25,333 nt of DNA from a virus: positions 1 through 25,333 of the IMG/VR virus record IMGVR_UViG_3300030380_000762; one strand, written 5' to 3'. A model generated the notes under the pieces. That model ran no database searches, was not told where the DNA came from, and was given only the letters and a program-made list of their open reading frames with translations. Shown one piece after another: positions 11,966 to 25,333 of the stretch (the first letter of the stretch is position 1; every line of letters starts with the position of its first letter). The position numbers and the translations under genes were made by a program.

Positions 11966-12603
11966 CAGGTAGCTCCTGCGTTTTGCCGTTGATAGATACT
12001 CGTCATATGAAGCGTGCCGGTGCCGTACTGCGCCCGCTCTTCATCACGCTTGATTTCTTCAATCGCACGGCTGAATTTTGTGTCATAGATTTGCGCACGC
12101 TGTTCATCCATGAGGTAGGTGTAGGCTTCTGTAAGGGCACCGCTAAGATAAGCGTCGGGGTGGCGCGTCAGTATCGTGTTGACAAGATTGCTGTCGCTCA
12201 ATGCGGATATCGACCCCACATAAATTATTTGAGCGCTATATGATGAGTCCGGCACTGGGCGGAACTGTATCTCGCCGCCGACTATTGAATAAGCGCGCGG
12301 TCTGCCAGCAGTACCACCAAACTCACTCTCAAGGGCAATGGGCGTCTTATATTCTAAAATTGTATTAGGATTCGTCAGTAATTTAACGTGGCGAACCTCG
12401 CGCAAATCCGTTGGCAGGGCGACAAACTCATCATTTGCGGTAAGGGTTGCGTTAGCACGTTTTTCCTGCGATCTGCTTTCAAGCTCACGCGACAGGCGGC
12501 CCTCTGCTAGACTGATAAACTCTGGAATGCGGTCAGTTAGGTCTGACCGAGCTAGAAAATTGCCAACTGCAGTTTTTAACTCGGTGTAGTTCGTGATCGC
12601 CAT
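11965..12603 (-). CDS. Head-tail adaptor, SU10-like
   Basis: 212 residues. 'MAITNYTELKTAVGNFLARS', 'IPEFISLAEGRLSRELESR' and 'ALPTDLREVRHVKLL' followed by 'GGEIQFRPVPDSSYSAQIIY' and 'LTRHPDAYLSGALTEAYTYL' are the conserved blocks of the phage adaptor family found with SU10-type capsids and P22-like needle hubs. These proteins form the ring below the portal in podoviruses. The C-terminal helix region (DEQRAQIYDTKFSRAIEEIK) is typical. It is followed by the tail genes. A one-base overlap with the upstream gene (12603) marks coupling. Confidence 0.85.
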   Translation of the reverse strand: MAITNYTELKTAVGNFLARSDLTDRIPEFISLAEGRLSRELESRSQEKRANATLTANDEFVALPTDLREVRHVKLLTNPNTILEYKTPIALESEFGGTAGRPRAYSIVGGEIQFRPVPDSSYSAQIIYVGSISALSDSNLVNTILTRHPDAYLSGALTEAYTYLMDEQRAQIYDTKFSRAIEEIKRDEERAQYGTGTLHMTSIYQRQNAGAT

Positions 12604-21848: not shown

Positions 21849-22328
21849 CTACTGAATCGTCGGCTCTTTGCCCTGTTTCTGGCCCTTTAAGCCGTCGCGC
21901 GCGCGTACTGGTAGGTTATGTGTATCTATACCCTCAACCCTACTCTGCACTTCCTTCAGCGCATCTAGGTAATTCCCATCGGCGCTATGCTCCACCTGCA
22001 TCCTGTCGCCATATGCTTTCGGCGCCATACGTGCTGCGGACCACTTCAGCCCATCGATAGCTGCACGCAGCATCCCACTGTCCTTATACTTGCCTTGCAG
22101 ACCAGCGAGGCTGATCTCTGCCACAAGCTCTCCGTAATAGTTACCGCGCTCTTCCTTTGCCTTCTCGTACTGCGCAGCGAAGGCAGCGTCGTCTCGCATC
22201 CACGCACAGATCGTCTTGCTATGCGGCATACCGGGCTGCTTGCAAGCCATAGCAGCGCTGCGTCCGTTCCTGATCTCATCGAGGAACCGATCAATGATCT
22301 CTGGTGTTTTCTTGGTCTTGTTCGCCAT
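21849..22328 (-). CDS. terS: Terminase small subunit
   Basis: 159 residues from ATG 22328 (MANKTKKTPEIIDRFLDEIR). GTG 22361 and ATG 22352 are in frame upstream, but they lie deeper in the methyltransferase gene, and homologues usually start near 'KTxxTPEI'. An N-terminal helix-turn-helix ('GRSAAMACKQPGMPHSKTIC', 'AWMRDDAAFAAQYEKAKEER') recognises packaging-site DNA. 'WSAARMAPKAYGDRMQVEHS' is a diagnostic block of this TerS family. The GGAAAGAG ribosome site precedes the ATG. It overlaps the ParB-methyltransferase stop by 38 bases. It is separated from TerL by the candidate packaging site. Confidence 0.85.
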   Translation of the reverse strand: MANKTKKTPEIIDRFLDEIRNGRSAAMACKQPGMPHSKTICAWMRDDAAFAAQYEKAKEERGNYYGELVAEISLAGLQGKYKDSGMLRAAIDGLKWSAARMAPKAYGDRMQVEHSADGNYLDALKEVQSRVEGIDTHNLPVRARDGLKGQKQGKEPTIQ

Positions 22329-23559
22329 TAAAACTCTTTCCGCTTTCCTCATGCGTTGCACTTAGCCCTGTGAAGTCCTGCCAGCGCTTCACGATCACAT
22401 CACAGTATTTCGGGTCTAGCTCTACAAGGCGTGCGTTGCGCCCTGTCTTTTCTGCTGCTATCAGCGTGCTACCGGAGCCGCCAAAGATATCCAGCACGAC
22501 ATCACCAGCCTTGCTACTGTTTTCGATTGCACGTAATGGCACAGCCACTGGCTTCTGTGTCGGATGCACATAATTTTTCGTGACATCCTTTGCGATTGAC
22601 CAAAGGTCGAAGTCGCTGCGGTCCCCTTTGCGGTACGGCGTGCCCTTGTGGAACAGGATAAACTCACACTGCCTGCGATAAGCCATGAAGCCCAAGCCAG
22701 CATTTTGTTTGTCCCAAACGATTACCGCATCGATGTCAGCGCCGTGCCTTTGCAAAGCGTTTTGAAACGGCTGCTGCTTGAGCGGAGAGACGCACACATA
22801 GACATCACCACCAGCCTTGCGCGCAATGAAAGCACCGCTGATGAGCGTTTCTAGGTCATCGTCTGCGAGATCATCGTTTTTTACTTTTCCGAGTCGGCTT
22901 GTTTTTTTATTTTGGCTTTCCTGTGAGCCGACTGTTCTGCCACCGCTGTAATCGATGCCGTACGGTGGATCGGTAAATACCATATCTGCCTTATCACCCT
23001 GCATGAGCGCATCAAGCGTTTCGATGCTGGTACTGTCACCGCACACGACCCTATGCCTGCCAAGCAGCCAAACATCACCCGGCTTGCTTACCGGCTCCTC
23101 CGGCAACTCTGGAACGGCGTCATCGTCTGTTAAGCCATCACTGACCTTGTTAGCCTCTGCCAGCAGCGTGTCGATCTCTTCAGCTTCAAAGCCAATCAGG
23201 TCCAGATCGAAGCCATCACTGATCAGGTCTTCGATCTCTACCGCAAGCATCTCCTCGTCCCAGCCTGCGTTGAGTGCCAGCTTGTTATCCGCGATCACAT
23301 ATGCACGCTTTTGCGCCTCTGTGAGGTTAGCAAGCATGATGGTTGGCACCTCGGCCATACCCATGCGCTGTGCTGCCATGAGCCTGCCGTGCCCTGCAAT
23401 GATGGTGTTTGTCTCATCGACAAGGATAGGGTTGGTCCAGCCAAACTCTTTGATGCTGGCGGCAACCTGCGCCACCTGCTGATCGCTATGCGTGCGGCTG
23501 TTGCGTGCATACGGCGTGATCTCAGCCGTGCTGCGAAATTGAATACTGATGTCAGACAT
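22291..23559 (-). CDS. ParB-domain / N6-adenine DNA methyltransferase fusion
   Basis: 422 residues. Residues 1-130 are a ParB/Sulfiredoxin-like domain with 'GHGRLMAAQRMGMAEVPTIM' at about 56-75 (ParB box II-type GHGR). From about 160 follows a beta-class methyltransferase: DPPY at 197-200 (motif IV, N6-adenine type), 'HPTQKP' at 332-337 (motif X side), 'DIFGGSGST' at 357-365 (motif I, SAM binding) and 'ELDPKYCD' at 380-387. All catalytic motifs are intact. Such fusions are common in phages and prophages. The target site cannot be read from sequence. It is the first gene of the late leftward operon and ends inside terS, suggesting that modification and packaging are coupled. Confidence 0.92.
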   Translation of the reverse strand: MSDISIQFRSTAEITPYARNSRTHSDQQVAQVAASIKEFGWTNPILVDETNTIIAGHGRLMAAQRMGMAEVPTIMLANLTEAQKRAYVIADNKLALNAGWDEEMLAVEIEDLISDGFDLDLIGFEAEEIDTLLAEANKVSDGLTDDDAVPELPEEPVSKPGDVWLLGRHRVVCGDSTSIETLDALMQGDKADMVFTDPPYGIDYSGGRTVGSQESQNKKTSRLGKVKNDDLADDDLETLISGAFIARKAGGDVYVCVSPLKQQPFQNALQRHGADIDAVIVWDKQNAGLGFMAYRRQCEFILFHKGTPYRKGDRSDFDLWSIAKDVTKNYVHPTQKPVAVPLRAIENSSKAGDVVLDIFGGSGSTLIAAEKTGRNARLVELDPKYCDVIVKRWQDFTGLSATHEESGKSFNGEQDQENTRDH

Positions 23560-24145: not shown

Positions 24146-24369
24146 GCGACAAGACCACCCGCGTTATGATCCACCCCGGCGTGTGGGTAGAAAAGCAGCA
24201 ATGCCACGAATGTGATGGCGATGGCCGCACTTGGTACGAGACCACGGTCTATGTGCCACCGGGCTTTGCTGGCTCTCCCTTTGATGAGCGGCTGCTGGAG
24301 TGTGAGCGCTGCGGCGGTAGCGGGCTGATTGACATCGATGACGACGTGTCTAGCTGCGAAGATTCTTGA
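24142..24369 (+). CDS. 75-aa zinc-knuckle protein (DnaJ-type CxxCxGxG)
   Basis: 75 residues. Two half-sites, 'CHECDGDG' (residues about 21-28) and 'CERCGGSG' (about 54-61), match the CxxCxGxG zinc-binding signature of the DnaJ central domain, with no J-domain or other chaperone part. Such stand-alone proteins are common in phages and may bind Zn2+ to act as small regulators. ATGA overlap with the acidic gene and a GAGG-type site give translational coupling. The C-terminus (DIDDDVSSCEDS) is acidic. It overlaps the convergent DUF6456-like gene by 20 bases; no terminator separates the two. Confidence 0.75.
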   Translation: MSDKTTRVMIHPGVWVEKQQCHECDGDGRTWYETTVYVPPGFAGSPFDERLLECERCGGSGLIDIDDDVSSCEDS

Positions 24370-24826
24370 AAGCATCCTCTAGTGCATCAAACGCCATGCG
24401 CATGATCTCGGTTGCAGCCTTCGGATTGCGTCCATGCCTGCGGGCCCACTCTGGCGCAGAGCAATCATAGACCACCACCTCCTGCGCACATCCAAACAAC
24501 TCCGTGCCCATAAGGCGCTTCAGCTTGAAGTAATCCATGAGCGCGTTTGCGCCTCTCTCGGACTGATCGCTGGCAGATGGGCCCGGTAGCGTCTCAAGTG
24601 ACACCGTGACCTTCTGCGGGCCGCCAGCAGCGCGGTAAAGCGCCATCATCTGCTCGGCAGCAATGAACTGGTGCTGCGTGATGTGCTTGTGCTTCAAGTA
24701 GTAATCGATCCAAAGCTGGTCGGTGACACGGGTGCGGCGTTGCCCCGCCTTGGCGGTCTCGACCTCCTCAACGCTGTGATGCCTGAGAAATTCAGCCGTA
24801 GGTTTTTGTGGCTTTGGGTCTTTCAC
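24350..24826 (-). CDS. DUF6456-like phage regulator candidate
   Basis: 158 residues. The C-terminal half ('YFKLKRLMGTELFGCAQEVV', 'YDCSAPEWARRHGRNPKAAT', 'EIMRMAFDALEDAFKNL') resembles the DUF6456 domain of alphaproteobacterial phage and prophage proteins, where a 'W....GRNPKAA......L..L...Y' block is typical. The N-terminal half contains 'VTDQLWIDYYLKHKHITQHQ' and 'FIAAEQMMALYRAAGGP'. The role of that family is not well described; regulatory function is commonly assumed. It overlaps the replication gene by 35 bases at its start and converges with the rightward island at its end. Similarity is from memory, confidence moderate. Confidence 0.6.
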   Translation of the reverse strand: MKDPKPQKPTAEFLRHHSVEEVETAKAGQRRTRVTDQLWIDYYLKHKHITQHQFIAAEQMMALYRAAGGPQKVTVSLETLPGPSASDQSERGANALMDYFKLKRLMGTELFGCAQEVVVYDCSAPEWARRHGRNPKAATEIMRMAFDALEDAFKNLRS

Positions 24827-25333
24827 TGATCCAGCCTTTCTGGACGGCTACCCGAAAGATGTCGGGGTGGTACTGCAAGGCACGGTTCATGTTCATCTCA
24901 TTGCCCATGATCGTGGTCAGAAACTGCTCCTTAGTTTCGCACTCGTACCATTTGCGCACGATGCCCGGCTCCTCCGTCACAAGCTCATCCTCCCAGCGCT
25001 GCTGGTTGAGCCATGTTGAGGGATACGGAATCCATCGCCGCTCTGTTGCAGAAATGCTCAACTGTTTCGCATAGGCCTGCATCGCGCTGATGAGCGTGAA
25101 AGGCTCTGTCTCTTTGCACGCTTCAACGAACGCATCAAAGGCAGGTTTCTTCCCGATCTTCTTCGGACATGCTTCCCAAAATTGATCGAAAGCGAAGCGC
25201 AGAGACTCTCTTTGTTTCTTATCGTTATTATATAGTTTCTTATTGTTAGGGGGAGATCTGGTCTCCGGGGGGTAGGAAGCCTGATCTCCTACCCCCCCGG
25301 AAGCCTGATCTCCTACCCCCCCGGTTGGGGGCA
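24792..25333 (-). CDS. Replication initiator-like protein, 5' end outside the window
   Basis: The frame is open to the right edge; 179 residues are visible. A disordered linker holds a duplicated GGVGDQAS unit, then 'FDQFWEACPKKIGKKPAFDA', 'FVEACKETEPFTLISAMQAY' and 'ERRWIPYPSTWLNQQRWEDE'. The 'F..FW..yPKK.GK..A..AF........I..A........W.PyPstWLNQ.RWeDE' block is the conserved C-terminal helicase-loading-type region of phage replication initiators (lambda O / DnaT-like organisers). The Met at 25082 is internal. The linker-coding DNA carries repeats and an AT-rich block like lambda ori. The N-terminal DNA-binding domain is beyond the edge. Confidence 0.85.
   Translation of the reverse strand, partial: PPTGGVGDQASGGVGDQASYPPETRSPPNNKKLYNNDKKQRESLRFAFDQFWEACPKKIGKKPAFDAFVEACKETEPFTLISAMQAYAKQLSISATERRWIPYPSTWLNQQRWEDELVTEEPGIVRKWYECETKEQFLTTIMGNEMNMNRALQYHPDIFRVAVQKGWISERPKATKTYG
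25211..25249. other. AT-rich block beside the repeats, possible unwinding element
   Basis: 39 bases with 31 A/T, standing out from about 50-55% GC surroundings. It directly adjoins the G/C-rich repeats and hairpin, the layout of phage origins such as lambda ori, where an AT-rich stretch next to initiator iterons melts first. It codes for the Lys/Asn-rich linker KKLYNNDKKQ, so the bias could partly be coding. Confidence 0.5.
25265..25300. repeat. G/C-rich hairpin in the initiator gene
   Basis: Left arm CCGGGGGGTAGGA (25265-25277) pairs with TCCTACCCCCCCGG (25287-25300) with one extra C, across a 9-base loop AGCCTGATC. Its right arm is part of the first copy of the tandem repeat. Such a strong stem inside a coding linker suggests a cis-acting role. 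Confidence 0.65.
25275..25322. repeat. Two perfect 24-bp direct repeats (iteron-like)
   Basis: The 24-base unit starting GGAAGCCTGATC and ending CTACCCCCCC occurs at 25275-25298 and 25299-25322 without a mismatch. Being 24 bases it keeps the frame and encodes GGVGDQAS twice. Additional copies may lie beyond the right edge. Perfect identity implies recent duplication or selection for binding. Confidence 0.85.

Follow-up and report, generated by a model that had tools for sequence, protein, structure and literature searches.

The initiator gene at the right edge of the window

The viral DNA analysed here, a stretch of 25,333 nucleotides (the window), breaks off at its right edge inside a minus-strand open frame. 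The repeats, the hairpin and the AT-rich block described below all lie within this one frame. From left to right, the features are:

24792-25331, minus strand: 3' part (179 aa) of an O-like replication initiator gene; open frame, cut by the right edge
25211-25249, minus strand: AT-rich block, candidate unwinding element; 79.5% AT, holding the most AT-rich 36-mer of the gene
25214-25227, minus strand: first copy of an AT-rich 14-mer repeat, coding-strand sequence TAACGATAAGAAAC; conserved in L003
25235-25248, minus strand: second copy of this 14-mer, TAACAATAAGAAAC, 21 bp away from the first; conserved in L003
25252-25266, minus strand: core dyad of iteron C, GGAGACCAGATCTCC, at a distance of 23 bp from B; L003 has this site at 2101-2115
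25267-25272: C6 on the coding strand, from the sequence
25275-25289, minus strand: iteron B core dyad GGAGATCAGGCTTCC; 24 bp from A
25292-25298, minus strand: G7 run on the coding strand between iterons A and B, from the sequence
25299-25313, minus strand: iteron A core dyad GGAGATCAGGCTTCC; exact match to the consensus GGAGAYCAGRYTTCC
25316-25322: second G run like that between A and B, from the sequence
25323-25333, minus strand: probable fourth dyad of the GGTTGCC..CAACC type, of which the window contains the right part, up to its edge; aligned by eye with L003 2031-2044 (GGTTGCCTACAACC)

The truncated protein matched phrog_270 (replication initiation protein, 2.8e-19) and phrog_9327 (primosomal protein, 9e-16). 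Its N-terminal domain and any further sites lie beyond the edge, and we used a close relative, viral contig L003, as a proxy. L003 carries a complete initiator gene of 288 residues (L003:1709-2572), to whose C-terminal 135 residues the truncated protein is 79% identical. The full L003 protein matched phrog_270 (4.8e-38) and phrog_8540, 'replication initiation O-like' (5e-20). Its N-terminal domain scored 20.1 bits against HTH_36 (PF13730), below the cut-off of 25, and the relative in phage C72C1 scored 41.9 bits, above it. An AlphaFold2 model built on relatives predicts a winged helix at residues 3-85, within which 52-64 probably form the recognition helix, then very low confidence over 91-141 and a C-terminus made of helices. 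It is this very-low-confidence stretch, a predicted disordered linker, that the array and the AT block encode. HTH folds dominate the structure matches, and among solved structures the only sequence relatives of the N-terminal domain were generic HTH proteins. In L003, an initiator N-terminal domain does stand upstream of the array, a winged helix with its weak HTH_36 match and its O-like label. The sequence-only reading had called the C-terminus that of a helicase-loader-type initiator; the PHROG labels bear out initiator and primosomal, whereas 'helicase-loader-type' goes no further than these labels.

Searches with the DnaB_C and IstB/DnaC families found neither a helicase of the DnaB type nor a loader of the DnaC type, whether in the window or in C72C1, a complete relative. 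An open frame at 24350-24826 (minus strand, 158 aa) overlaps the 3' end of the initiator gene, is conserved in L003 and sits where lambda has P; it gave only weak matches (DUF6456, phrog_37226) and no loader match. Farther left, 22291-23559 (minus strand) encodes a ParB N-terminal domain fused to an N6/N4 DNA methylase (phrog_498, 4.8e-145).

Repeats, dyads and the AT-rich block

The tandem repeat at 25275-25324 has 2.1 copies of 24 bp at 100% match, and its two perfect copies occupy 25275-25322. The perfect tandem repeats noticed beforehand are thus real, and at lags of 12-60 they form the only exact 24/24 tandem match in the whole window. Shuffles preserving the protein and codons of the window gene give p=0.007 for its 20/20 match at lag 24. 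Along the coding strand, the order at the edge is the dyad end (..TGCCCCCAACC), G7, TAGGAGATCAGGCTTCC, G7, TAGGAGATCAGGCTTCC, TACCCCCC, GGAGACCAGATCTCC, CCC, TAACAATAAGAAACTATATAATAACGATAAGAAAC.

A G/C hairpin, also noticed beforehand, is present: arms at 25252-25272 and 25293-25313 are 86% complementary, and the region folds as single-stranded DNA with z=-3.7. The better interpretation, nevertheless, is of a diverged third iteron at 25252-25266: every site is an imperfect dyad in its own right, which lets this one pair with both direct copies. The array thereby consists of three 15-bp imperfect dyads, spaced 24 and then 23 bp and followed by the AT block. Iteron C adjoins that block, matches in both orientations and lies in a reading frame different from that of A and B, encoding the peptide PETRSP. 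Outside the array, no iteron match with 0-1 mismatches occurs in the window, in L007 or in C72C1.

An initial dyad statistic (arm 6, one mismatch) was too noisy, leaving real genes, lambda O included, inseparable from shuffles; a continuous dyad score performed better. By this score the truncated window gene is not above shuffles (p=0.24), only its direct repeat being so, and L034 (p=0.02) and several relatives are above them.

The AT-rich block was borne out as well. It adjoins the array on the C-terminal side of the gene, and its 79.5% AT, against 46% for the window, is reached at 5 of 25,294 39-mer positions, three of them at the block and two near 12347. The block may contain sequence-specific unwinding motifs, in the window and in relatives. 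Its AAT/AAC/TAT triplets specify a peptide rich in Asn, Tyr and Ile (NYNNNINNN in relatives).

Conservation in a close relative and across the family

In L003 the same three dyads lie at 2054, 2078 and 2101, again at intervals of 24 and 23 bp. Another two dyads, GGAAGCAGCTGCTTCC at 2008 and GGTTGCCTACAACC at 2031, were identified by eye, with half-sites that differ from those of the others, and extend the 23-bp spacing upstream; repeats past the window edge are thus found in this relative. The gene order in L003 is cI-like (minus), Cro-like (plus), a small ORF, RusA-like and the initiator. Between the window and L003, 7 of 123 nucleotides differ in the linker and 83 of 414 in the C-terminal domain (p=9e-5), and synonymous changes number 3 of 37 and 30 of 109, respectively (p=0.013). 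Since the linker has changed less, also at synonymous sites, and since iteron C places its dyad in another frame, the array is, by this comparison, conserved as DNA and not merely as peptide. A scan of 2.9 million viral contigs with the exact iteron consensus returned the L003 contig only, so that the window could not be extended by its own DNA.

A scan with the N-terminal domain gave 80 loci and 29 distinct genes, 23 of which make up the family proper. The linker direct repeat exceeds synonymous shuffles in 22 of the 23 (p 0.003-0.037), the exception being L114 (p=0.12); each test used 300 shuffles keeping protein and codon usage, which bounds the p-values, and the members are related, so the tests are not independent. 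The repeat lag is 22-25 bp in 20 members, mostly 23-25; the other three have lags of 35 or 39 bp. Directly 3' of the array, nearly every member, and lambda too, has the most AT-rich 36-mer of its gene, with weaker placement in L134 and L138. Related phages thus retain repeats at the same codons, one of the checks proposed by the sequence-only reading.

The same repeat test was positive for lambda O (p=0.003), Lactobacillus phage J-1 (p=0.003) and Vibrio phage D77 (p=0.02). No such repeat was found in Salmonella phage SI8, a distant HTH relative (p=0.91), or in the very distant matches L135, L140, L142 and L144. The layout is therefore not shared by all: family members generally have the array, other phrog_270 initiators have it too, and some distant HTH relatives lack it. 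A scan of genome contigs returned only distant relatives of the C-terminal domain.

The module of winged helix, array and AT block is joined to two types of C-terminal domain. One, 'FWxxxPKKVGKKA...TWLNQxRWEDE', occurs in the clade of the window and in L042 (L003:1709-2572, L035:3001-3780, L042:3001-3789), and the other, 'DWxP...DIRLWDExNGNKAAY', in C72C1 and its kin (L005:20557-21384, minus strand; L048:1553-2386). This suggests that domains have been exchanged at the origin. The window (at 25333) and L037, L038, L047, L078, L088 and L089 end in or beside the iteron array, as though assembly stopped at the repeats. In C72C1 the cumulative GC skew turns near 24-25 kb, ~3 kb from the array at 21.05 kb; it tracks a change of gene strand and was set aside as uninformative about the origin. 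A literature search on phage C72C1 yielded nothing relevant.

Comparison with known origins and weighing of alternatives

The order of iterons followed by AT-rich DNA inside an initiator gene, on which the sequence-only reading had based its comparison with lambda, was found here. Lambda iterons are imperfect inverted repeats that bind O dimers, with an AT-rich region next to them; the O complex opens this region, and P and DnaB join (PMC7466680, PMC5043065). The window shares with oriLambda the iterons within the initiator coding sequence, the AT-rich block after them and the imperfect inverted repeat in each iteron (GGAGATCAGGCTTCC, GGAGACCAGATCTCC). Annotated lambda iterons at 39034, 39054, 39078 and 39101 are spaced 20, 24 and 23 bp, so that iterons 2-4 have the same 24- and 23-bp spacing as the window array. 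L003 adds an N-terminal DNA-binding domain upstream of the array and cI and cro upstream, as in lambda. In contrast, the iteron sequence is unrelated, the window has G-run spacers, and no helicase-loader neighbour was recognised beside its initiator, where lambda has P. Profile comparison of the N-terminal domain with lambda O by hhalign showed no similarity (probability 0.4%), and the two proteins have some PHROG 'O-like' families in common (phrog_391, 678, 345), partly over different regions.

Initiators of phrog_270/phrog_8540/phrog_1032 (Lactobacillus phage J-1, Vibrio phage D77, C72C1) share the protein families and 23-24 bp direct repeats in the linker-coding part; they differ in repeat sequence, and C72C1 and its kin have another type of C-terminal domain. 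In plasmid pSK41, origin boxes lie centrally in rep and encode a dispensable linker, the NTD binding the boxes and the CTD binding primase; in pPR9, a phage-like HTH_36 domain, accompanied by its own region, stands as one block in place of the NTD and the origin region, and the pPR9 rep region replicates autonomously, with a working mini-replicon (PMC5703833). The likeness lies in origin boxes in mid-rep between a wHTH NTD and a CTD, the NTD of pPR9 being HTH_36, together with a weak Foldseek fold match to pSK41 RepA_N (4pql/4pt7, E 0.01-0.04). The differences are that these are Firmicute plasmids and that the RepA_N domain and CTD belong to different families; the window and L003 proteins gave no Pfam match to RepA_N.

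The sequence elements are arranged as in a lambda-type intragenic iteron origin, on an initiator whose N-terminal domain has no profile match to lambda O. Because of this, and because no P-type neighbour was found, we file it with phrog_270-type phage initiators having intragenic origins and not as a strict O/P system. The proposal of a new origin family did not survive: the iterons belong to a diverged clade of an initiator family that many viral contigs carry, and oriLambda and pSK41/pPR9 already have this layout (PMC7466680, PMC5043065, PMC5703833). The iteron sequence is new to the collections searched; its kind is known.

We conclude that the array is very probably a phage replication origin made of intragenic iterons, at which the gene's own initiator would bind, melt the DNA and initiate replication. 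In such a scheme, the N-terminal winged-helix domain, as seen in L003, would bind the 15-bp dyads as dimers, every 23-24 bp. The resulting nucleoprotein complex would strain and melt the adjoining AT block at 25211-25249, and the helical C-terminal domain might recruit a host helicase or primase, directly or via a loader, this being the least certain step. As the linker that the array also encodes is predicted to be disordered, DNA there could serve as an origin at little cost to the protein. Three outcomes speaking against an origin in the initiator gene were sought, namely no further repeats, no upstream N-terminal domain and related phages without repeats; none of the three was found.

Winged-helix proteins that bind dyads are usually regulators, and this, with the dominance of HTH folds among the structure matches, could make the array mainly an autoregulatory operator through which the initiator blocks its own transcription while replication starts elsewhere. 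Yet the sites in L003 lie ~300 bp inside the initiator gene, away from the promoter, almost all members, like lambda, have an AT-rich block after the array, and the PHROG families of the full protein are replication initiators; we consider an operator very unlikely. The repeat could instead be a coding one, a selected or slippage-generated peptide GGVGDQAS in a low-complexity linker with no role as DNA. A 24-bp unit is indeed 8 codons, so that A and B repeat in frame, and the encoded region is predicted to be disordered. This explanation is just as improbable, given that the repeats exceed synonymous shuffles in 22 of 23 members, that lags of 23 and 25 bp in several members break codon register, that the peptides vary between clades while the layout persists, and that the dyad of iteron C is in a different frame, within PETRSP.

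Even less probable is that the G7/C6 hairpin forms a structure of its own, such as a cruciform, G-quadruplex, single-strand origin or terminator. The single-strand fold (z=-3.7) fits such a structure, as do G5+ runs that recur in different reading frames in about half of the family, but L083, L092 and L123-L133 keep the repeats and the AT block without any G5+ run, G-run counts are mostly not above synonymous shuffles, and a search of the region against Rfam gave no match. A functional role for the G runs, as a G-quadruplex or other structural element, likewise found no support, since roughly half of the members are without them and their counts are mostly at or below those of shuffles.

With an intragenic iteron origin as the preferred reading, the lambda-type layout extends to a phage family known mostly from environmental viral contigs, and the origin becomes predictable from the sequence of the initiator gene. 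The family also provides a test bed for how initiator-origin specificity evolves when both share one DNA, because site and recognition helix tend to change together while spacing and layout stay constant.

Site sequence and the recognition helix

Most members carry dyads based on TGACA/TGTCA, which the clade of the window lacks: the dyad is GGAGAYCAGRYTTCC in L003, TGAAGCAGTTGCTTCA in L071 and of another type in L067 and L072. Residue 57 (L003 numbering), which precedes the conserved lysine of the recognition helix, is Arg in 18 of 18 TGACA members, and is Val in L065 (= L003), Asn in L067 and L072, and Ser in L071. On the tree, the four members without TGACA sites cluster inside the TGACA members, with support that is not strong (81/76). 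L134, a case apart, is an exception to the pairing of residue and site, keeping Arg with another site.

These comparisons suggest that site sequence and recognition-helix residue diverge together, over few independent events. It is possible, and we put it forward tentatively, that co-evolution via residue 57 has switched specificity within this family, making it a natural series of intragenic origins. Initiator and origin would then change together in one gene, so that the protein-DNA code could be read and the replicons would be compatible with one another. The new part is the family-wide table of sites and recognition helices, with which co-evolution of initiator and origin becomes testable. 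In the linker of L134, a distant member, near-perfect 24-bp repeats with GGTACC-type sites run from L134:2001 onward.
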